Part shown: positions 11,395-23,750 of the stretch, piece by piece | Numbering within the stretch: position 1 is the first letter of the stretch | Layout of the letters: each line of letters opens with the position of its first letter | NCBI GenBank assembly: GCA_012523035.1 | Contig: JAAYJH010000040.1 | Coordinates: forward strand, 1 to 37,963 | Source: Fibrobacter sp. | Lineage (GTDB): Bacteria > Fibrobacterota > Fibrobacteria > Fibrobacterales > Fibrobacteraceae | Direction of reading: 5' to 3' | DNA length: 37,963 nt | The notes under the pieces: generated by a model | The model's database searches: none | What the model was told of the DNA's origin: nothing | Seen by the model: only the letters and a program-made list of their open reading frames with translations | Made by a program: the position numbers and the translations under genes

Positions 11395-12185
11395 CTTCAA
11401 AATTTCTTCTTGATAAAATGTTTTTAGGTGTTTCTATTTTATTTCTTTTGAACACCACTCCTTTGTTTGCTCATCAAAAATGTGAAATTGAACACCAAAA
11501 AGCAGTGCATTACTATCAAAACAATGAGTATGAACAAGCAGCAAATCAATGGAAAATCTGCATAGACAAAGGAATTGTACAAGCTGATTTGTTTTACAAT
11601 TTAGGGAATGCTTATTTTAAAATGAATCAAATAGGTTATGCTATTTTGTACTATAGTTCCGCCCTTCGATTAGACCCTGGAAACGAAGACTACAGCTACA
11701 ACTTAAAATACGCCCAAGGCTTTACCAAAGATAAAATTGATGCTTCCAGTGAAGAAAACCCTATTTTAAATACAATCTACAAGATCCACCACTTCTTTTC
11801 TCTCCAAACGGGTTTATACGCCATCATTGGACTTTTATGGTTGATTTCTTTTTTGGCCGTAGCCAAGCTCTATTCCAAAAACCCAACATTTAAAAATCTT
11901 TCTATCGCTTCTATCTTCACTCTAAGCATTATTTTAGCCATGTTTTTATTGAGTGTCTCTTACAAAGTCTTTGTCTTAGAAACCGAACACAAGGGTGTAG
12001 TACTCACTTCAAGTACTAATGTCACAAGCACTCCACAAGTGCAAAGCCAAACTCTATACGAGCTTTCCGAAGGGACCACTTTTGATATTGTTTCTTTTCA
12101 TCAGGGCTGGGTACAAATTCAACTCGGTGATAAAATCAAAGGTTTTGTTAAAGAAAGCGAAATAGGTGTTATCCATGAGTTTTGA
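11391..12185 (+). CDS. batE: BatE-family protein: TPR plus two membrane segments plus bacterial SH3 domain
   Basis: The start is ATG 11391, overlapping the batD TGA, with GGAG at 11379-11382. A TTG start at 11367 would add eight residues in front of the signal sequence and is unlikely. The 264-residue protein begins with a signal peptide (MTSKFLLDKMFLGVSILF...). One TPR region follows (YYQNNEYEQAANQWKICID, then DLFYNLGNAYFKMNQ). Two membrane helices (GLYAIIGLLWLISFL and ASIFTLSIILAMFLLSV) come next, and a C-terminal SH3-like fold contains the YELSEGTTFDIVSF and GWVQIQLG segments. This TPR-TM-TM-SH3 layout is that of BatE. It is translationally coupled to batD and overlaps the ZIP gene by 11 bases. 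Confidence 0.83.
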   Translation: MTSKFLLDKMFLGVSILFLLNTTPLFAHQKCEIEHQKAVHYYQNNEYEQAANQWKICIDKGIVQADLFYNLGNAYFKMNQIGYAILYYSSALRLDPGNEDYSYNLKYAQGFTKDKIDASSEENPILNTIYKIHHFFSLQTGLYAIIGLLWLISFLAVAKLYSKNPTFKNLSIASIFTLSIILAMFLLSVSYKVFVLETEHKGVVLTSSTNVTSTPQVQSQTLYELSEGTTFDIVSFHQGWVQIQLGDKIKGFVKESEIGVIHEF

Positions 12186-12966
12186 TTTTTCTAGTATCCC
12201 TTGGATAGGGGCTTTTGCCAGTTTAGTGGCTGGTAGTGCCACGGTTCTTGGTGCCTTGGGTGTTTTTGTGATGCCCAAAAAAAGTCCTCTTTTAGAAGAT
12301 GTTTTTATGAGTTTTGCTGCTGGGATTATGCTAGCAGCTTCTTTTTTTAGTTTAATACTTACAGGCCTTGAAGCTGCAAAAGATTCTGGCTTTTCTGATT
12401 TAATGGGTGTTTCTACTGTTATTTTTGGGATTCTGGCTGGAGCCTCTTTTGTTTGGATTTTAAATTATTTTATTCCTCACGAGCATTTTAATATGGGCAA
12501 AGAAGGAGTGATGGATTCTTTAAAACTCAAAAGGATTTGGCTTTTTGTGATTGCCATCGCCATCCATAACTTTCCAGAAGGCATGGCAGTCGGTGTTGGG
12601 TTTGCTGGAAACAATACGGCTAATGGGACTTCTTTGGCTCTAGGCATTTCCCTTCAAAATGTACCAGAAGGCTTTGCGGTTGCAGTCGCTCTCCTTGCCG
12701 TAGGTTATTCTCGTCTTTTTTCTTTTGGCATAGCTTCTATCACAGGTTTATTAGAGCCTTTAGGTGGACTTGTTGGAGTATTGACCTTAGGTGTTTCTCA
12801 AAACTTTTACCCTTTTATTTTGGGTTTTGCAGGAGGAGCTATGTTATTTATAATTTCAGATGAAATCATTCCAGAAACTCATCAAAAGACACATGCCACT
12901 GTCTCCACTTTTTCTCTTTTAATTGGTTTTGTACTTATGATGTTTTTTGATGTTTTGTTTGGCTAA
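12175..12966 (+). CDS. ZIP-family divalent metal transporter (ZupT-like)
   Basis: Imports divalent cations such as Zn2+ or Fe2+ across the inner membrane; the specificity cannot be read from the sequence. The start is ATG 12175, six bases after AGGTG; the GTG at 12166 is inside that site. The 263-residue protein has about eight membrane helices and a cytosolic metal loop (FIPHEHFN). The paired ZIP transport motifs are HNFPEGMAVG in helix IV and QNVPEGFAVA in helix V, followed by FIISDEIIPETH. It overlaps the batE end, so the two genes are probably cotranscribed. Confidence 0.9.
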   Translation: MSFDFSSIPWIGAFASLVAGSATVLGALGVFVMPKKSPLLEDVFMSFAAGIMLAASFFSLILTGLEAAKDSGFSDLMGVSTVIFGILAGASFVWILNYFIPHEHFNMGKEGVMDSLKLKRIWLFVIAIAIHNFPEGMAVGVGFAGNNTANGTSLALGISLQNVPEGFAVAVALLAVGYSRLFSFGIASITGLLEPLGGLVGVLTLGVSQNFYPFILGFAGGAMLFIISDEIIPETHQKTHATVSTFSLLIGFVLMMFFDVLFG

Positions 12967-13082: not shown

Positions 13083-16000
13083 ATGTTTCAAAAAACCTTA
13101 ATTTTACTTGCTTTTTTATCTTTTTTTGCTTTTTCTGCAGACACTTTAGAAATCTTTGCATTAAGAGTAGAATTCAAAGAGGAAATTCCAGATAATTCTC
13201 TTACTACTGGGACAGGCCTTTTTGATTCTGACCCCGATGCAGCCAAAAAAAATTACAGCCTAGACCCGCAAGGCAGGCGTGCTAGTGCTCTGTACTGGAA
13301 CAAACACTTTGAATTTGCCAAACAATACTATAAACGAGTGAGTCAAGGCAAACTGATTTTAAAATATCGAGTCTTTCCAGAATCTGGCTCAGCATATAAA
13401 TTAGACAAACATATTATTGACTATAACCGCACCAACAAAAAAAAGAACGAAAAAACCGCCGAGTACGACGAAGCTCGAAGCCGTGACTACATGAGCTTTA
13501 TTTGGGATGCCATTCAAAAAGCCCATTCCGACGCAAAATCCCCTTTTAATGAGCCCGCTCCTCAAAACACAAACACCCAAAGAGCTTATATGATTATCCA
13601 TGCAGGCTCTAGCCGATTGCTAGACGGAGGCACTATGGGCACTAATGGGGCGAACACACCTGGAGATTTTATAGATGTCTTTGTGTCTAGTGACTTTTGG
13701 GAATACTTGCCCGATTCTTTGGCTCAAAAGAAACACACTCAAGGCATTGTTTTAAACACAAGCTCTATAGACACTCTGAAAGAGGTCATGGTGGTCAGTG
13801 AAACGGCATCGCAAGACGGCTTAAACTGGGGAATCAATGGTATTATCGTCAATCAAATCGGACGATTTTTAGGGATGCCAAACACTTACGATGTTGTGAA
13901 AGGGATTTCAAGGTTAGGCTATTTCGATCTAATGGATTTTGCAGGCTACAATGCCGGGAATGGATTTTTCCCAGTGCTCCCTAGTGCTTGGCTTCGTATT
14001 TATATGGGGTGGGCAGAGGCAATAGAAGTGCAGCCTTCTCAAAAAAACTTAAAATTTGAACTCGCTGCCGCTGGTTCTGGGCTTGGAGTAGAGATTTTAA
14101 AAATCCCTTTGACCAATACAGAGTATTTGCTAATAGAAAATCGCCAGAGATCGTGGAACAAAGAAGGGACCGTAGATGTTTTAATAGAAGACGCAGAAAC
14201 AGACAATGCTAAAATAAAAACTCACACTATTCCTATCGACAGCTTGTCTTTACTTTTTGAAGATAGTGTGTGCGTTAAAAACAAATGCACTCCAAACAAG
14301 AAAAAAGCTTCTGGAATTATTGTCGGCACCAGCTCTTTTGATGCCGCTCTTCCGGCAAGTGGTATAGTGGTATGGAAAGTTAACGAATGGTATCTTAAAG
14401 AAAGTCTTCCGTATGGTGTGGCTAATTTTTGGGGTGGAGACACCTTTAGAGACCATCAATTTGGTATTTCTTTAGTAGAAGCCGATGGTATTTTAAGTAT
14501 TGGTAAAACTTTTAAAAATGCCCTTGGCCAAGATGCCTATGATTATGGATCTGGTACAGACCTTTTGCCACACATTCGTTTTACTAAAGACTCTGCATTA
14601 GACACTGTGAGTTCCATTTTACCCAAAGCTTATGCCAATACAGCCACTACTATGGGGGGGCTCTCTGGCATAGAAATTCATGCGAAACCCAAATCTGCTT
14701 ACCGAAAAGAACGATCAGAAAACACTTTTATGGGAGACAGTGTTCTAAACTTTGCCTCTCTTAGCATGGAAGTAGAAATTTCTTTTGGTGAAAACAAAAT
14801 CCCTAAGTCTCAATTCCCTAAAAACATAGGTATCAAAACTAAATCCAACGCGGTGGTGAGCGTAGATTACCCATCTTCTTCTTTAAAATCAAAAGAAAAA
14901 GCCCTTGTATTTGCTTCTGAAAATGGTACTTTACAAATATTATCTGCTCACGGAGAAGCATTAATAGAGTCTGACACTTCTGTTTTTGGTGATCATGGTC
15001 TCAGTGTCAAAGGCTCCACTCCAGAACAAGCTTTGTACCGTTTAGGAGCTCCCAAAGATTCTTTGATAGGCATAGCTTCTAGTGAACACTTTATTGTTTC
15101 TAGCTACCCTTCTGGAGTTTTAGTGACCGAATTAGAGCCCTTATTAGATCAAGTCACTTATAAACAACGCTTTCTTAAAATCCCCAAATTAAAAACAGTC
15201 CCTCTCCTGTCTGGAGACACTCTATGGGTGGCCTCTAACTCTAAATTATATGCACTGACATTTAAAAAAGGCCTTCAAGTCATTGATTCTACCAAACTCC
15301 AAGGAACTGCAACACACCAAATAGCCCTTTGTAAAGCAAGTGGTACAACCATGATCGCCATAGCAAGCGAAGATGCCTTTTTAGAACTTTACACTCCACA
15401 AAACAAATCTTTATACAAAGCCTCTTTTAGTCAAAAAAAATCTAACGAATTTCTAAGCACTAAAGAACAAGTTTTTAGTATAGCTTGTTCTGATTTTAAA
15501 AGAGACGGGACAGCTCAAATCTGGTTACTAGGCAGTCTCGGCTATGGACGCATGATCCAAGCAGATTCTTCTCTCAAAGCCGCTTCCACTCCTAGACAAT
15601 TCAAACGAGGCTTCACTTCTGGAGCAGAAATATACCACGAATATTCTGCTCCAGCCATTGCAGATATAGATGATGACGGGTATCCTGATGTGGTTTTTTT
15701 AGGCCATAATTTGCTCTATGCTTTAAACAAAGATGGAGTGCCTCTCCAAGGCTTTCCTTCTAAAATTTCTAACGGGATTCCTGAATATTCCTTCCAGAGC
15801 GATCCACTTATTTTAAACTATTTCAACAAAGATAAGCCAGGGATTTTAATAGGAACTCCAAACGGGTTACTCAAAGCCTTTGACCACCAAGGAAAGCAAA
15901 TCAAAGATGGATTCCCTTTAGCAAGTGGTTCTTTTGAATACACAGACTCACTTTATCCTATGACAATCATACTTGGTGATTTTATTGATTCTTTGCCAAA

Positions 16001-16460
16001 ACCAATTGTTTATTCTTTTCACAAAGAATTTGTTTCTGGCTTTCAAATTCCAGAAGTAAAAACTAAACCTAAAAACTCTGTCCTTGCTTGGTCTTCACCT
16101 GGTCAATCCAACGAAAGAAACTACTATTTCGATGCCAATCAATTAAAGAAACCAAGTCTCAAAATAGCCTCTGAAAGTATCGAAGATTTTTATTTGTACC
16201 CCAACCCTATAAAAAATGGAATTGCAAAATCTAGATTTACACTGGGCATGGATGCTTCTTCAGCAAGCTTAGATATTTACGATATTTCTGGACACAAGGT
16301 CTTTAGCAAATCCTTAAAAAAGCCTTATAGCGGGAAAAATCAAATCGATCACATAGACTTGAGTTCTTTGGGAAGCGACATTTACACCGTAGTTTTAAAA
16401 GTCAAATTTAAATCTGGAAAAGAGAAACAAAAAACTTATCGAATTGGAGTGCTTCGTTAA
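13083..16460 (+). CDS. large secreted M6-like protein with destroyed zinc motif, beta-propeller-like region and C-terminal sorting domain
   Basis: A 1125-residue secreted protein. The signal peptide is at residues 1-19 (MFQKTLILLAFLSFFAFSA). An M6-metalloprotease-like domain spans about 20-470. Where active members read HEFGHxLGLPDLYD, this protein reads NQIGRFLGMPNTYD (Asn257, Gln258, Arg261), so all three zinc/catalytic residues are replaced while the surrounding fold signature is kept. After it comes the family's LPSAWLRIYMGW and EYLLIENRQRSW. From about 560 to 980 there is a beta-rich, propeller-like part with an FG-GAP-type Asp loop (ADIDDDGYPDVVFLG). The last 95 residues begin with FYLYPNPIKNG, a type IX-like sorting domain. 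The SUMF1-like lipoprotein starts two bases downstream. It is likely non-proteolytic and may act in binding or adhesion (inference). Confidence 0.8.
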   Translation: MFQKTLILLAFLSFFAFSADTLEIFALRVEFKEEIPDNSLTTGTGLFDSDPDAAKKNYSLDPQGRRASALYWNKHFEFAKQYYKRVSQGKLILKYRVFPESGSAYKLDKHIIDYNRTNKKKNEKTAEYDEARSRDYMSFIWDAIQKAHSDAKSPFNEPAPQNTNTQRAYMIIHAGSSRLLDGGTMGTNGANTPGDFIDVFVSSDFWEYLPDSLAQKKHTQGIVLNTSSIDTLKEVMVVSETASQDGLNWGINGIIVNQIGRFLGMPNTYDVVKGISRLGYFDLMDFAGYNAGNGFFPVLPSAWLRIYMGWAEAIEVQPSQKNLKFELAAAGSGLGVEILKIPLTNTEYLLIENRQRSWNKEGTVDVLIEDAETDNAKIKTHTIPIDSLSLLFEDSVCVKNKCTPNKKKASGIIVGTSSFDAALPASGIVVWKVNEWYLKESLPYGVANFWGGDTFRDHQFGISLVEADGILSIGKTFKNALGQDAYDYGSGTDLLPHIRFTKDSALDTVSSILPKAYANTATTMGGLSGIEIHAKPKSAYRKERSENTFMGDSVLNFASLSMEVEISFGENKIPKSQFPKNIGIKTKSNAVVSVDYPSSSLKSKEKALVFASENGTLQILSAHGEALIESDTSVFGDHGLSVKGSTPEQALYRLGAPKDSLIGIASSEHFIVSSYPSGVLVTELEPLLDQVTYKQRFLKIPKLKTVPLLSGDTLWVASNSKLYALTFKKGLQVIDSTKLQGTATHQIALCKASGTTMIAIASEDAFLELYTPQNKSLYKASFSQKKSNEFLSTKEQVFSIACSDFKRDGTAQIWLLGSLGYGRMIQADSSLKAASTPRQFKRGFTSGAEIYHEYSAPAIADIDDDGYPDVVFLGHNLLYALNKDGVPLQGFPSKISNGIPEYSFQSDPLILNYFNKDKPGILIGTPNGLLKAFDHQGKQIKDGFPLASGSFEYTDSLYPMTIILGDFIDSLPKPIVYSFHKEFVSGFQIPEVKTKPKNSVLAWSSPGQSNERNYYFDANQLKKPSLKIASESIEDFYLYPNPIKNGIAKSRFTLGMDASSASLDIYDISGHKVFSKSLKKPYSGKNQIDHIDLSSLGSDIYTVVLKVKFKSGKEKQKTYRIGVLR

Positions 16461-16462
16461 AA

Positions 16463-17320
16463 ATGAATGCCTTGTACAAAACATGTTTATCTAAGAATAA
16501 AACAACAATCTTCTTTTTGTTGTTTTTATTTTTATTAAACGCTTGCACACACACCACAAAGTCCGATTCAAAAGATGATTACCTTGACAATGATCCTCAT
16601 TTAAAAGGCTCTAGCGAAAGGCCGATTTCTTCTTCGAGTTTTGCAGAAACTACAAAATCCCCCACAGACTCTCTTTTTTGGAAGGATCGTTGGGTTTATA
16701 TCCCTTTTGAAGAAGGCTTTGAACTCTTATCTACCGAAGTCACTCAAGAAATGTATTCCTCTATCATGGACACACTTCCATTTCAAAAAGATATTCACGA
16801 CTCACTCCCTGTAATCTCTGTTTCGTGGTACGACGCCGCTCTTTTTTGCAATGCCTTGTCCAAAATTTTAGGTTTAGACTCTGTTTATGAGTATTCAAGT
16901 ATTGGGCCCAAAAACACTTTACTTCAATTGAAAATAAATCAAAATAACGGTGTTTATTTACCCAGTTTAAATCAATGGTTATACGCTTTAAATGGAAAGT
17001 CCGATACCGATTTGGACTCTACTACAGAAGATAACCTTAGAGTTTATGCTCATTTTGGAGGGAGCAACTCTGGCCCCATACAGGTGGCTCAAAAACAAGC
17101 AAATCACTGGAATTTATATGATATGTTTGGAAATGTAGAAGAATGGGTGGCCTATTGTGATGGCAAGCCAGTCCCGACCAATGCCTCTACCTGCATGGTC
17201 AAAGGTGGTTCTTGGGCTAGCCCTAGCCATCAATTGAAAAGTGATTTTGAAAAACGGCAAGTTCCTGATACTCGCTCCGATACCATTGGATTTAGAGTAG
17301 CAAAAAATGTTACTAAATAA
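16463..17320 (+). CDS. SUMF1/FGE-sulfatase-fold lipoprotein without the catalytic cysteines
   Basis: A 285-residue lipoprotein. The signal peptide ends in the lipobox LLNAC (Cys28), followed by a polar and serine-rich linker to about residue 70. A SUMF1-like C-type-lectin-fold domain occupies the rest. Family marks are STEVTQEMYSSIM, VISVSWYDAALFCNALSK, GVYLPSLNQWLYAL, NLYDMFGNVEEWV, VKGGSWASP and a terminal IGFRVAK. True formylglycine-generating enzymes carry redox cysteines near the C-terminal part of the domain. Here the stretch between GGSW and GFRV has none, so formylglycine formation is unlikely and a binding or structural role is more probable. It starts two bases after the M6-like gene. 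Confidence 0.83.
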   Translation: MNALYKTCLSKNKTTIFFLLFLFLLNACTHTTKSDSKDDYLDNDPHLKGSSERPISSSSFAETTKSPTDSLFWKDRWVYIPFEEGFELLSTEVTQEMYSSIMDTLPFQKDIHDSLPVISVSWYDAALFCNALSKILGLDSVYEYSSIGPKNTLLQLKINQNNGVYLPSLNQWLYALNGKSDTDLDSTTEDNLRVYAHFGGSNSGPIQVAQKQANHWNLYDMFGNVEEWVAYCDGKPVPTNASTCMVKGGSWASPSHQLKSDFEKRQVPDTRSDTIGFRVAKNVTK

Positions 17321-18273: not shown

Positions 18274-19059
18274 CTATGGAGTCAAACTTTTATAAGTATT
18301 TGGGACATGGAGCTTCCAAATCCCTTCTCCCCATTTTGCATCATTTTGAACTCGTTTGACTTGAATTTCTAAAATTTTTTTAGCATCTCTAAAATAAACT
18401 AATTGAGAGGGGAGTCTTTTTCTTTGAAAGTCTCGATAATCCTTAAAATCTAATCGTTCTATAAGTCCACCTAAACCCACCTGAGATAAAGAACTAACTT
18501 CTTTTGTGTCTTTATTTTGCTCAAAATACATAGACCTTCCGTATTTGTCTTTTGCCACTCTTCGTTCCACACCCTCTATATTTTTAATTTCTACTTCACT
18601 GTGCTCTGGCAAAAACTCTCCATAAAAAATATTTGTCAATTGATGTATATCAATCAAAGGGAGCTCTATATTCCCAACTATACCCACAAAAGGACCTCGC
18701 CCTTTTAAGAATCTTTTTTCTGTTGGAAAAGTCATAGTCCACTCATTGTCACTCCACAATAAAGAGGCAACTCCTATCCCTAAGGGCCCCATTAACTCTA
18801 AACGGTATCGAGTGCCTTTTTGTACAAATAAAACTCCACTAAACTCTTGTTTTTTTTTCTGATCATCTTCGAAACTTAGAGTCATCTTCACTCTTAAACT
18901 ATCATATTTAGATACTGTTTCTTTGGACTCTTCATTGTTCATCTTTAAGATTTTTGGGCTGGCACAAGAAGCCAATGCCAATACACTCAAAGCTAAAAAA
19001 ACAAAGAACAATTTTGTGTTTTTAGGGAATGAGTTTCCTTTTTGATCACTGCAATACAT
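18274..19059 (-). CDS. LolB-like / DUF4292-like outer-membrane lipoprotein
   Basis: A 261-residue lipoprotein with the lipobox ALASC (Cys32). The mature part has the alternating beta pattern seen in LolB and DUF4292 proteins: LRVKMTLSFEDD, FSGVLFVQKGTRYRLELMGPLGIGVASLLW, then a helix and a late strand region. LolB inserts lipoproteins into the outer membrane; assignment to that exact role is inference, because sequence identity in this fold is low. It lies one base downstream of a TPR lipoprotein gene and is the last gene of the purA operon. Its stop faces the methyltransferase stop across about 25 bases with no visible terminator. Confidence 0.68.
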   Translation of the reverse strand: MYCSDQKGNSFPKNTKLFFVFLALSVLALASCASPKILKMNNEESKETVSKYDSLRVKMTLSFEDDQKKKQEFSGVLFVQKGTRYRLELMGPLGIGVASLLWSDNEWTMTFPTEKRFLKGRGPFVGIVGNIELPLIDIHQLTNIFYGEFLPEHSEVEIKNIEGVERRVAKDKYGRSMYFEQNKDTKEVSSLSQVGLGGLIERLDFKDYRDFQRKRLPSQLVYFRDAKKILEIQVKRVQNDAKWGEGIWKLHVPNTYKSLTP

Positions 19060-19060
19060 A

Positions 19061-20953
19061 TTAGGGTTTTTCTATGAGATTCAAATTTTTAGCGTTAAAT
19101 TCTTCTATCTTTTTATGAATCAAACTCATTTTCTCTTTCAATCCCATTTTTTTGGCTATAGCCATATAGTGTTCCCAATACACAACATCATCTATATGAT
19201 ACTCCCCAGAAAACAATAAATTTTCCATGATTTTTAATGCTTCCGGATATTTTCCTAGCCGATACAAAGCCCAAGCTTTTGAATCTAGATAAGCCTGTTC
19301 TTTAGGTTTATAATATAAAGCAGAATCTATATAACGGTCTCCCATCTGTACTTCTTTTGAGTTGCGATTCAAATCGACCAACATATAACCTAAATAATTT
19401 AAAGCTTGATGGTGTTTAGGGTCTATATCCAAGAGTTTATTGAAAAAAATCACTGCTTTATCTATGAGTTCCATTCGCTCATAATTCACCGCCATATCAA
19501 AAAGGATGCTCACATTATTTGAATCCGATAAACGCAAGTTTTCTAAAAAAGAAGCGGCCTTTTTCCTCGCTTCTTTTGCTGTGTAAATCGAAACAGAATC
19601 TTTTTTCTTTTTTTCTAAATAATAAGCTTGATGCATTAGAGCACTAGCATACATAGTTTGAATCACTTGATACTTTCGATTAGCGTTCATGCGCATTTGG
19701 GCTAATGCAGTAGATGATTTCACTTTTTTAGTGATTTCTACTGAAGGCTTCCAGTCACTCCAATAACCTAAAAGTGAATCATAAATGTCATAAGCTTTTT
19801 GGTGTCTTCCATAGATATAATAAACAAAAGCTTGATTTGGCAAATAATTTTCTGGATCTAATTTTGCAGCTTTTTCTATTTCTGAAATTGCCGTTGAAGT
19901 GTCTTTTTCTGTCTGAGCAATAGAACTTAAATCGGCATGAGCAGAGGCCGCATAATTCTTGTGTTTGGTGAGCTTTTTAAGGTGCGCTTTAGCACTATCT
20001 ATTTGTTTTAAATCCAACTCTATCAATGCTATAAAATTGAGAATTTTTACAGAAGGCACCTTCAAATCAAAGTAAGCTGTTTTCAAATAATTTAAAGACT
20101 TTTCTAAGGAACCTTGTAAAATATAAACTCTTGCTTTTATTAAAATAGCAGTAGAATCTTTGGAGTCCTGCTTCAACACTTGATCTACTTGTTCTAGAGC
20201 TTCTTTATATCGTTTATTTTGAAGGAGTAACTCTCCTCTCAAATTGGCGTACTTTGTATCGCCGTGAATTTCGTAGGCTTTTTCTAATAAATCTATCAAA
20301 GCAGAGTCTTGACGAGAATTAGTCAAGAGTTGTATTTGCTTATCTAGAATCGATTTAACATAATTTACTTGCGGCAACAAAACATCGTACACTTTAATCA
20401 ATTCATCATATTTTTGGATGGATTCTAACAACATGCTATATTCATAAAGAATCATAAAATCTCGTTCATCTGCACTCATAGCTTTTTTAAAATAAACTTT
20501 GGCAGAGTCTATTTTTTTATTACGCATGTACAAAGAGGCAAGTAAACTGATATACGAAGTTTTTAAGTTTTTAGATATCCCTTTTCCTTCTTCTGCAATT
20601 TTTAAAGCCTTAGTAAAATCCCCTAATTCTGCATATTTAGAGGCTAACAAAAAATACAAATAAGCACTAGTAGGGTCTGCTTTTTGAGCTTCCTCTAATA
20701 AGATCAGAGTCACCTCTTGGTTAGTAGAGTCTCTTTGCCCTAAAACTTGAAGGAATAAAGTGTGAGATACATCTAGATCTTTGTAAACTGGAGGCGTAGT
20801 TTCTTCATTCAAAGTGTTGGCTTCAATATTTTGGACTTGATCTTTAGTATTGGTGTTCTGAAGTTCATTTTTTTGAATAGGCTTTGAAGCACTACAAGCT
20901 AAAACAACTAGTAGAAAAAACACAAGGTATAAAACAAACGAGAATTTACGCAT
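19061..20953 (-). CDS. TPR-repeat lipoprotein
   Basis: A 630-residue protein. The lipobox VVLAC (Cys20) follows a basic start and hydrophobic core. After a polar linker to about residue 60 the rest is tetratricopeptide repeats, for example AYLYFLLASKYAELGDFTKALKIAEEG in the first unit and HHQALNYLGYMLVDLN near the end. The last repeats (AYLDSKAWALYRLGKYPEALKIMENLL) resemble a widespread family of outer-membrane TPR proteins found next to LolB-type genes. The likely role is scaffolding in envelope biogenesis. The ATG at 20953 has AAGGTC upstream. The gene lies eight bases after the PASTA gene. Confidence 0.78.
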   Translation of the reverse strand: MRKFSFVLYLVFFLLVVLACSASKPIQKNELQNTNTKDQVQNIEANTLNEETTPPVYKDLDVSHTLFLQVLGQRDSTNQEVTLILLEEAQKADPTSAYLYFLLASKYAELGDFTKALKIAEEGKGISKNLKTSYISLLASLYMRNKKIDSAKVYFKKAMSADERDFMILYEYSMLLESIQKYDELIKVYDVLLPQVNYVKSILDKQIQLLTNSRQDSALIDLLEKAYEIHGDTKYANLRGELLLQNKRYKEALEQVDQVLKQDSKDSTAILIKARVYILQGSLEKSLNYLKTAYFDLKVPSVKILNFIALIELDLKQIDSAKAHLKKLTKHKNYAASAHADLSSIAQTEKDTSTAISEIEKAAKLDPENYLPNQAFVYYIYGRHQKAYDIYDSLLGYWSDWKPSVEITKKVKSSTALAQMRMNANRKYQVIQTMYASALMHQAYYLEKKKKDSVSIYTAKEARKKAASFLENLRLSDSNNVSILFDMAVNYERMELIDKAVIFFNKLLDIDPKHHQALNYLGYMLVDLNRNSKEVQMGDRYIDSALYYKPKEQAYLDSKAWALYRLGKYPEALKIMENLLFSGEYHIDDVVYWEHYMAIAKKMGLKEKMSLIHKKIEEFNAKNLNLIEKP

Positions 20954-20961
20954 AGGCGACC

Positions 20962-21720
20962 TTAATCTACAATTTTAAAGTCGATTCGAGTACCTGCTGA
21001 AAGATAATCTCCTGCTTTTGGAGCATGTTCTAAAACCACTCCAGGAGCTTCTCCTTCTTGTGGTACTCGTGTGATTTTACCGCTTACAAAACCCAACTCT
21101 TCTAATTTTGGAAATACTTCTTCTAAAGCTAAACCCTCAAAATCAGGCAAGAGTCTTTTACCTTTGGTGGCCCCAGCAGAAATAACCACATTCACAGTGT
21201 CTCCCACCCGCAAAAAAGTGTCTGCCATAGGCTCCGTTCGAATCACTACTCCTATAGGGATATTGAGGTGAGCCCCTTTCAGGATTTTCCCTTGAACCAA
21301 TCCAGCTCTATTCAAAGAAATCTCGGCTTGTTTTTGGCTTTTTCCTCTTAAATCGGGCACAGCTATTTCTCGAACCCCTTTGCTCAATGTCAAAAGCACA
21401 GTACGGCCTTTTTTTGCTTTTCTACCAGCCACTGGAGTTTGCCCTAATATGTGCCCTATAGGGACTTCGTTACTATACCTCTCTTCTGCTAGAATTTCAA
21501 AATTAAACTTCGCTTTTTTTAGAGTTTGAGCTGCTTCTTCTTGATGCAATTCCAACACATTGGGCACCTCTAGCTCGCTAGTAAAATTCCCTGCTATAAT
21601 AGGCATCACCAGTTGATCTACTAGCAATACTCCCAATAAAACAAGGACGAAACTAAAAAGAAAAGCTTGCATGACTGTGCTTTTCATTAAATTACTAAAG
21701 GCGCTTCTAATTTTCATCAT
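20962..21720 (-). CDS. kinase-less PASTA-domain membrane protein
   Basis: Has a short cytoplasmic N terminus, one membrane helix (about residues 18-45, AFLFSFVLVLLGVLLVDQLV) and three PASTA units. The units begin near LEVPNVLELHQEEAAQTL, IAVPDLRGKSQKQAEISL and RLLPDFEGLALEEVFPKL. PASTA domains usually bind peptidoglycan fragments on Ser/Thr kinases or PBPs, but no kinase or transpeptidase domain is present. The start is ATG 21720 (or 21717); the GTG at 21726 overlaps the ribosome-binding region. The gene begins directly after the Crp/Fnr gene. A role in cell-wall sensing or anchoring is inference. Confidence 0.85.
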   Translation of the reverse strand: MMKIRSAFSNLMKSTVMQAFLFSFVLVLLGVLLVDQLVMPIIAGNFTSELEVPNVLELHQEEAAQTLKKAKFNFEILAEERYSNEVPIGHILGQTPVAGRKAKKGRTVLLTLSKGVREIAVPDLRGKSQKQAEISLNRAGLVQGKILKGAHLNIPIGVVIRTEPMADTFLRVGDTVNVVISAGATKGKRLLPDFEGLALEEVFPKLEELGFVSGKITRVPQEGEAPGVVLEHAPKAGDYLSAGTRIDFKIVD

Positions 21721-21726
21721 ATCCAC

Positions 21727-22428
21727 TTAAATTTTATTTTCTAAAACATCTTCATCTAAAATTACAAGTTCTTTACCCACCACTGAAATCACACCCTTTT
21801 TCACTAGGCTAGAAAAAACTCGACTGACCGTTTCTCTTGTGGTACCTGTCATCTCTGCAAATTGCTGTTGCGTAGGGCGATTCCTAATGACCACACTCAT
21901 GCCACCTTCTTCGTTGTGCACCCTCACACCTTTTTCTTGAACCAGATTTTGAATGGTGCCCACCACCCTAGAAAACGCCGACATTGTCGAGAGTGAACCA
22001 ATGTGTCTATTTGCCTTACGCAACCTAGAGCTCATCTCTATCAAAAGAGAAATCGATAGCTCAGGGGTTTCTTGAAGCAAGGTCAAAAAAACTTCTCGAC
22101 GAATGATCAAAAGTGTAGCATCGGTCACCGCTTTCACAGAAGCAGAACGAGGCTCTCCATCGATTAAAGACATTTCTCCAAAAAAATCGCCCTTGCCTAG
22201 TAAAGATAAAATGGTTTCTTTGGCATCTGAATCGGTCATATAAACCTTGACCTCTCCATCTGCTATCAAATACAAGGCTTGTAAAGAATCATCTTTTTCT
22301 AAAATAATAGTCTCTTCTTTAAAATACTCTTTTTTTTCAACCAACGAAGCCAATTGATGGAGTTGGGCTTCGCTTAGTCTTGAAAAAAGGTCTATGCCTT
22401 TTAGTAATTTAACAGCATTTAGATCCAT
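21727..22428 (-). CDS. Crp/Fnr-family transcription regulator
   Basis: A 233-residue regulator. The N-terminal cyclic-nucleotide-binding beta barrel covers about residues 10-125, with the phosphate-binding cassette GEMSLIDGEPRSASVKA keeping Glu and Arg-Ser at the CRP ligand positions. A dimer helix follows, then a C-terminal winged helix with recognition helix TRETVSRVF. The Arg-Glu...Arg spacing matches that of CRP, which would suit TGTGA-like half-sites; the ligand is not proven. There is no N-terminal Fe-S cysteine set, so it is not Fnr-like. AGAGG precedes ATG 22428, and purA ends nine bases upstream. Confidence 0.9.
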   Translation of the reverse strand: MDLNAVKLLKGIDLFSRLSEAQLHQLASLVEKKEYFKEETIILEKDDSLQALYLIADGEVKVYMTDSDAKETILSLLGKGDFFGEMSLIDGEPRSASVKAVTDATLLIIRREVFLTLLQETPELSISLLIEMSSRLRKANRHIGSLSTMSAFSRVVGTIQNLVQEKGVRVHNEEGGMSVVIRNRPTQQQFAEMTGTTRETVSRVFSSLVKKGVISVVGKELVILDEDVLENKI

Positions 22429-22437
22429 AAAAACCTC

Positions 22438-23721
22438 TTAGTTCAAATCTACCACCATTGTTTGATCTCTTTTAGGGCCCACAGAAACAATCCCTATTTT
22501 GACCCCAACCAATTCTGACAAACGAATCAAATAATCTTGAGCCAACTTAGGCAATTCATCCCATGAACGGCATCCAGAAATATCACTACCCCATCCAGGT
22601 AGCGTTTCGTAAACAGGCATACAACGGCCCACTTTAGACAGTTGATTGGGGATCAAGTCCACTTTTTTACCATCGCACTCATAGTGCGTGCACACTTTAA
22701 TTTCATCAAAAGTAGCGAGGACATCTAGCTTTGTAATTGCCAAGTGAGTCAATCCATTGACAATGGCCGCTTTTCTTGCTACGGGTGCATCGAACCAACC
22801 GCAGCGTCTATTGCGTCCAGTGGTGGCTCCAAATTCATTTCCAATGCGTCGAAGTTCTTCTCCTAATTCATCGTTCAATTCTGTAGGGAAAGGCCCGTTA
22901 CCCACCCTAGTGGTGTATGCCTTCACTACACCAAAAACTTGATCTATAGCCTTAGGACCGACACCCGCTCCACAACTAGCATAACCAGCGACAGTGTTGC
23001 TCGAAGTCACAAAAGGATAAGTGCCCTGGTCCACATCTAAAATGGTCCCTTGAGCCCCTTCAAAGATCAATTTCTTGCCTTCTTTTAAACTATGAAACAA
23101 ATACTCACTCACATCGGCCACATAAGGGGCTATTTTTTTCCCTAAGTCCAAATAATCACGAATAACTTTTTCTGGATCTATTGGAGGAGCATTAAACATT
23201 TTTTCAAATTCTTTGTTGTGAATTTTTGCCATATTTTCTATTCTGGGGCGTAACTCTTTTTCATCTAACAAATCGCCCACACGAACACCGATTCGATTCA
23301 CTTTATCACTATAACAAGGGCCAATACCACGACCAGTAGTTCCTATAGCTTTTTCTCCAGCTTTTTCTTCTTTTAACTTATCTACGGTTGTGTGCCACGG
23401 CAATACCACATGAGCATTATTTGCAATCAGCAAACGACCTTCTGGATTTAATTTCTTTTGCCGAATATCTTCTATTTCTAAAAGAGTTTGTATAGGATCT
23501 AGCACCACACCATTACCAATCACGCACATTTTATCTTTGTGCATAATACCCGATGGGATCAAATGAAACACAAACTTTTGATCACCCACCTCCACAGTAT
23601 GACCAGCATTAGCTCCGCCCTGAAAACGCACAATCACATCTGCGTCTAAAGTTAAAAAATCTACTATTTTTGCTTTACCTTCGTCGCCCCATTGAGAGCC
23701 AATAACAACACGATTCGACAT
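22438..23721 (-). CDS. purA: adenylosuccinate synthetase
   Basis: Joins IMP and aspartate with GTP hydrolysis to make adenylosuccinate, the first committed step to AMP. The start is ATG 23721, giving 427 residues, the normal length. The TTG at 23736 would add five residues that do not belong to the family. Motifs are GSQWGDEGKAKIVD near the N terminus, GGANAGHTV, TTGRGIGPCYSDK, the GTP-side TTGRNRRCGWFD, and the TKLDVL segment that contacts the guanine base. First gene of a five-gene operon with the Crp, PASTA, TPR and LolB-like genes. Confidence 0.97.
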   Translation of the reverse strand: MSNRVVIGSQWGDEGKAKIVDFLTLDADVIVRFQGGANAGHTVEVGDQKFVFHLIPSGIMHKDKMCVIGNGVVLDPIQTLLEIEDIRQKKLNPEGRLLIANNAHVVLPWHTTVDKLKEEKAGEKAIGTTGRGIGPCYSDKVNRIGVRVGDLLDEKELRPRIENMAKIHNKEFEKMFNAPPIDPEKVIRDYLDLGKKIAPYVADVSEYLFHSLKEGKKLIFEGAQGTILDVDQGTYPFVTSSNTVAGYASCGAGVGPKAIDQVFGVVKAYTTRVGNGPFPTELNDELGEELRRIGNEFGATTGRNRRCGWFDAPVARKAAIVNGLTHLAITKLDVLATFDEIKVCTHYECDGKKVDLIPNQLSKVGRCMPVYETLPGWGSDISGCRSWDELPKLAQDYLIRLSELVGVKIGIVSVGPKRDQTMVVDLN

Positions 23722-23750
23722 AACACCTTCATTCAAAAAAATAAAAACTC

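Follow-up and report, generated by a model that had tools for sequence, protein, structure and literature searches.

T9SS-linked proteins and the M6-like family

Almost all work on the T9SS has been done in Bacteroidota. In the attachment complex of Porphyromonas gingivalis, PorV serves as the tether of PorU, and PorQ as that of PorZ (PMC12704123); PorK/GldK is a dead FGE fold that has been reused as a docking hub of the same system (PMC12421860). Fibrobacter, a major degrader of cellulose in the rumen, has been proposed to export its surface cellulases via the T9SS (PMC6851124). In NCBIfam, a family of proteins is described as "T9SS-dependent M6-like inactivated metalloprotease" (NF052323, T9SSA_dep_M6i), so that inactivation and T9SS dependence are already named for the wider family to which the protein described here is related. 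Active M6 metalloproteases, such as InhA and PrtV, are covered by the models TIGR03296 and PF05547. In the open-licence literature no paper was found on the operon, the intact relatives or the function of the pseudoprotease; the linkage of the family to porV and porU, the existence of relatives with an intact motif in T9SS operons and the missing segment ahead of the domain in Fibrobacteraceae are new.

The pseudoprotease of Fibrobacter and its layout

The gene lies at positions 13083..16460 (+ strand) of a stretch of 37,963 nucleotides from a Fibrobacter sp. contig (JAAYJH010000040.1), the whole of which is called here the window. It is an intact open reading frame encoding 1125 aa, and its product matches NF052323 with E=4.1e-93 (best stretch 18-813). 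With this family it shares the order of an M6-like domain, a beta-rich part and a T9SS tail, as well as the loss of HExxH, but its score of 313.1 bits is below the curated cut-off of 600 bits; a relative from Ignavibacteriales reaches 1052 bits against the same model. Moreover, whereas NF052323 relatives on the Bacteroidota side show the residues A/S-S/N-S/N at the former site, Fibrobacterota have fixed N/S-Q-R; unlike those relatives, the window protein has no segment ahead of the domain, and its gene is parted from porV in class Fibrobacteria. These comparisons place the window protein as a divergent relative of NF052323, not an equivalog, within a phylum-wide branch that has fixed residues of its own.

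The product starts with a signal peptide, read from the sequence (residues 1-19, MFQKTLILLAFLSFFAFSA; 13083..13139, + strand), and the M6-like (pseudo)catalytic region follows straight after it, with no intervening segment (residues 20-535; 13140..14687, + strand). An all-beta, propeller-like middle part is predicted by the model at residues about 536-1030 (14688..16172, + strand) and includes a weak FG-GAP match at residues 853-871. The protein ends in a T9SS type A sorting domain, or CTD (residues 1033-1125; 16179..16457, + strand), supported by Por_Secre_tail (PF18962; 28.1 bits vs a cut-off of 27, residues 1038-1108), with TIGR04183 slightly below its cut-off (21.3 bits, cut-off 23). In the model this CTD of 93 residues has seven strands and lacks the extra hairpin; its length and strand count do not discriminate between a cleaved and a retained CTD under the published criteria (PMC11285876). 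The intact frame of 1125 codons, the signal peptide and the sorting domain reported in a first-pass annotation, made from the sequence alone, are thus all present. In the genus of Candidatus Fibrimonas (Fibrimonadaceae; e.g. loci L056, L058 and L104) the orthologue has no counterpart of residues about 575-857 of the middle part and retains the M6-like region and the tail.

The full-length AlphaFold2 model (pLDDT 89.6, pTM 0.88) finds as its best PDB match the T9SS protein PorZ (5m11, E=2.5e-12), with low TM-scores (0.19/0.26); on the model, this match reflects the propeller and the CTD, which are common folds. The window protein resembles PorZ in its propeller-like part and T9SS CTD, and the family is gene-linked to PorV-type proteins, but it bears an M6-like domain that is absent in PorZ. 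The M6-like region modelled alone (pLDDT 88.6) has OgpA as its best match (E=1.4e-3), with PAPP-A and ADAMTS-5 ranked lower among the weak ones; no PDB fold match was obtained at E<=0.001, and a PDB sequence search with the domain profile found nothing. The model would therefore weakly favour a metalloprotease-type scaffold, and the assignment to the M6 family rests mainly on sequence. The sequence similarity to M6 proteins is significant, both in the NF052323 match and in a partial match to TIGR03296 (E=1.3e-13, best stretch 263-360), which at 51.5 bits is under the curated cut-off of 110.8; the G..P..YD flanks are retained, and no match to PF05547 was found for the window protein.

Replacement of the zinc site and its conservation

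Residues 257-270 (NQIGRFLGMPNTYD; 13851..13892, + strand) stand in the place of HExxHxxGxxD. The protein reads NQIGRFLGMPN where this pattern is expected, with the substitutions H257N, E258Q and H261R, and the putative third ligand is also replaced (N267). The window protein hence differs from M6 metalloproteases in the H, E, H and Asp positions, in addition to the absence of the segment before the domain. The surroundings are kept. Ahead of the former active-site helix, SETASQDGLNWG (residues 239-250; 13797..13832, + strand) is hyper-conserved in the alignment, and after it GYFDLMDFAGYN (residues 279-290; 13917..13952, + strand) is retained, a Met-turn-like stretch with the conserved Met found after M6 zinc sites. 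The first-pass annotation had described both the change of all three key residues and the survival of the flanks and of later M6 marks, and the two observations hold. It had also named a second intact HExxH-type site as one finding that would speak against inactivation; a sequence scan of the 1125-aa protein found none.

The replacements are shared by orthologues. Across 46 aligned Fibrobacterota sequences, position 258, once the catalytic Glu, holds Gln in 45, and position 261, once the second His, holds Arg in 45; at position 257, once the first His, 37 sequences have Asn, 7 have Ser and 2 have His. The mean column entropy of residues 236-290 is 0.96 bits, below that of the M6 core (1.63) and of the middle part (2.0-2.5), so that the replaced site is one of the protein's most constrained regions. 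The catalytic death of the window protein is well supported at the level of sequence. Orthologues with the same substitutions, proposed at first pass as a check, therefore exist throughout the phylum.

Distribution and linkage to porV and porU

The pseudoprotease gene is single-copy and phylum-wide in Fibrobacterota. A domain profile search found orthologues in 164 of 168 genomes, including all 89 near-complete ones, and protein searches found one in 59 of 61 genomes; the 45 near-complete relatives all carry it (45/45), each together with PorU-model matches.

Outside class Fibrobacteria, the immediate upstream neighbour, on the same strand, is a PorV-family gene in 59/59 distinct informative loci, which come from several phyla: 18 from Fibrobacterota, 12 from other groups and 29 from the GTDB phylum that includes the Ignavibacteriales genome (30 fetched, with one duplicate contig). 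Loci that start at a contig edge (L125, L129, L136 and L180) are uninformative. The gene porU precedes porV in 36 of the 41 loci outside Fibrobacterota. The neighbours were identified by NCBIfam models (PorU, NF033707, 952 bits; PorV_fam, NF033709, 307 bits). Within class Fibrobacteria, including the window, the pseudoprotease gene stands apart from porV and porU, which in the host genome are found on contigs other than that of the window; for this reason the linkage is inherited evidence only. As the gene is single-copy, phylum-wide and directly behind porV outside class Fibrobacteria, the linkage of the family points to the T9SS apparatus.

The host itself encodes SprA (1038 bits), PorU, a PorV-family protein and a PorZ-like frame, and a T9SS is therefore present. 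Its PorU retains the GHG...C residues; GHG and Cys are the dyad residues of C25-type peptidases. The PorZ-like frame (contig C115) has 744 residues and matches NF052228 over the last ~165 model positions, below the cut-off. The window protein has no match to NF052228 (PorZ). The idea that it replaces PorZ was dropped, since an NF052228 match of some kind is present in all 61 genomes searched, and the frame in the host also indicates that the pseudoprotease is not simply a substitute for PorZ.

The host PorV-family protein (L162:7388-9586, contig C101) carries an inserted propeller region. The same protein in Fibrobacterota (also L128:6800-9664 and L164:4813-7008) shows a region of ~370 aa of the two-component-regulator propeller type after the first barrel part, with weak PorZ matches and a split match pattern that recurs in most relatives; the protein resembles a PorV into which a PorZ-like propeller has been built.

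Relatives with an intact motif and the origin of the pseudoprotease

Distant relatives were located in Ignavibacteria-type genomes, in KSB1 and in Candidatus Eisenbacteria. Six relatives were found in the small phylum that contains Candidatus Eisenbacteria; all of them keep HExxH (five as HExxHxxGLPD and one as HEFGHILGALD), share PETxSQD...NGINGV-type surroundings and are encoded in the order porU-porV-M6 wherever upstream DNA is present. Since this group keeps the motif (6/6) in the same operon where it is visible, the sequences indicate that a protease of the T9SS operon underwent inactivation. The locus L145 shows HQFGH, a form with the Glu alone altered. The N/S-Q-R pattern is that of Fibrobacterota; the relatives on the Bacteroidota side, with A/S-S/N-S/N, keep D267, and HExxH occurs in none of the 30 Bacteroidota-side loci (0/30). 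In the GTDB phylum of the Ignavibacteriales genome, the family is present in 47 of 118 genomes sampled. The tree supports the intact clade (99/95), Fibrobacterota (100/100) and a group of KSB1, L145 and Ignavibacteria (87/84); it was rooted at the midpoint and its outgroup branches are long, so that one or more losses of the motif would fit it.

Between signal peptide and domain, as estimated with a simple hydrophobicity rule, the intact relatives have 52-63 aa, Chitinivibrionia-side sequences 27-50 aa, Ignavibacteria 17-28 aa and the Fibrobacteraceae examined 0. This segment may be a propeptide.

The porU-porV operons of Candidatus Eisenbacteria type with an intact-motif M6 protease (L143, L178, L179 and L181; also L177 and L180) suggest that the T9SS occurs beyond the usual phyla.

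Possible role and alternative explanations

The protein is probably a non-catalytic, T9SS-linked surface subunit acting near PorV/PorU and derived from an inactivated M6 protease. According to this explanation, the zinc ligands and the catalytic Glu would have been replaced in the lineage leading to Fibrobacterota (NQxxR for HExxH), the segment ahead of the domain would have been lost in Fibrobacteraceae, and strong purifying selection would have maintained the fold, the region around the former cleft and the sorting domain for the T9SS. The pseudoprotease would most likely be exported by the T9SS and may remain on the cell surface close to PorV (and PorU), where its former substrate cleft could bind a protein partner, e.g. 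a T9SS client or a subunit of the machine. The T9SS role itself is inferred from gene order and conservation. Precedents by analogy are the tethering of PorU and PorZ in the P. gingivalis attachment complex and PorK/GldK, a catalytically dead enzyme fold in the same machinery; the pseudoprotease differs from PorK/GldK in fold and location, and the FGE-like protein at this locus is a downstream neighbour. More tentatively, and with less than even confidence, the protein may be an uncharacterised T9SS subunit in which an ancestral operon M6 protease beside PorU/PorV turned into a docking subunit whose old substrate cleft accommodates a segment of a T9SS client or partner, with the motif replaced in at least two ways.

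The type A sorting tail and the signal peptide would also suit an ordinary T9SS cargo, that is, a surface-exposed pseudoprotease serving as an adhesin or substrate-binding scaffold, for which the propeller-like part would be appropriate and to which the proposed T9SS export of Fibrobacter cellulases lends some weight; T9SS tails are common on cargo proteins, and the tail alone is thus no sign of a role in the machine. We consider this unlikely because the gene is universal and single-copy in the phylum, where an adhesin would be expected to be patchy, because in several phyla the family shows linkage to porV and porU, and because the most conserved part is the former active-site region and not the propeller. 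The adhesin suggested at first pass thereby finds no support, while the secreted, intact pseudoprotease proposed with it is borne out by the open frame, the conserved replacements and the phylum-wide presence. Pseudoproteases are known as regulators of active relatives, and the host genome has a separate M6 protein with an intact HEFSH (L067:8270-9352, contig C31, at the contig end), for which, or for PorU, the pseudoprotease could be a decoy or inhibitor-like partner. This is distinctly improbable: the genome gave no sign of linkage between the pseudoprotease gene and the one for this M6 protein, the family being linked to porV/porU instead, and a role directed at PorU would merge with the T9SS-linked subunit favoured here.

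An enzymatic or metal-dependent activity retained via another set of residues would account for the extreme conservation of the pocket, with Q258 and R261 nearly invariant, and for D198 and H497, which are conserved in Fibrobacterota and not in the intact relatives. It is nevertheless very improbable, as there is no second HExxH, the conserved H173, D195, E240, D285, E347 and E352 for the most part occur in the intact relatives as well and are hence ancestral rather than part of a rebuilt site, and the new residues amount to one His and one clear Asp, fewer than a typical zinc site needs. Among the conserved columns, no new His/Glu/Asp set able to rebuild a zinc site was seen, which was a check proposed at first pass, and such a rebuilt site is judged unlikely. 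A decaying or non-functional remnant, to which the loss of the catalytic residues could be ascribed, is refuted by open frames, phylum-wide presence and near-invariant replacements and retains practically no probability; the first-pass view that simple decay is not involved agrees with the fixation of the replaced residues across the phylum and with the existence of relatives with intact HExxH.

For the T9SS-linked subunit, the core position in the phylum and the family linkage to porV/porU make the pseudoprotease a candidate for a missing part at the surface end of the T9SS, in a genus whose surface cellulases may depend on this system. It would be a further case, alongside PorK, of a dead enzyme put to new use in the T9SS, and the intact-motif relatives beside PorU/PorV raise the question of the substrate of the ancestral protease.

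Genomic neighbourhood in class Fibrobacteria

The gene of an FGE/SUMF1-like lipoprotein with a PorK/GldK-type fold (16463..17320, + strand; PF03781, E=5.6e-25) starts two bases after the stop codon, as previously annotated. It was also put forward as a possible partner: as a neighbour it is real, since 34 of 35 loci examined in Fibrobacteraceae have it directly downstream of the pseudoprotease gene, but it is seen in Fibrobacteraceae only and is therefore not the primary partner of the family. FGE enzymes have catalytic cysteines in the GGSW region. In the window lipoprotein this region is without cysteine, and the protein resembles the dead FGE folds of PorK/GldK type.

A ZIP zinc transporter gene (12166-12966) was considered as a sign of zinc biology and rejected, the neighbour not being conserved. 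According to the neighbour comparison, a LolB/DUF4292-like lipoprotein gene (18274..19059, - strand), which in most other Fibrobacteraceae is a near upstream neighbour on the same strand, and a conserved block encoding a TPR protein, a PASTA protein, a CRP-like regulator and purA (19061..23736, - strand) often precede the pseudoprotease gene in class Fibrobacteria; here, this purA-LolB block sits downstream, on the opposite strand. The PASTA-repeat protein between the TPR protein and the CRP-like regulator (20962-21726, 254 aa) has no kinase domain, and this kinase-less form is conserved in class Fibrobacteria.
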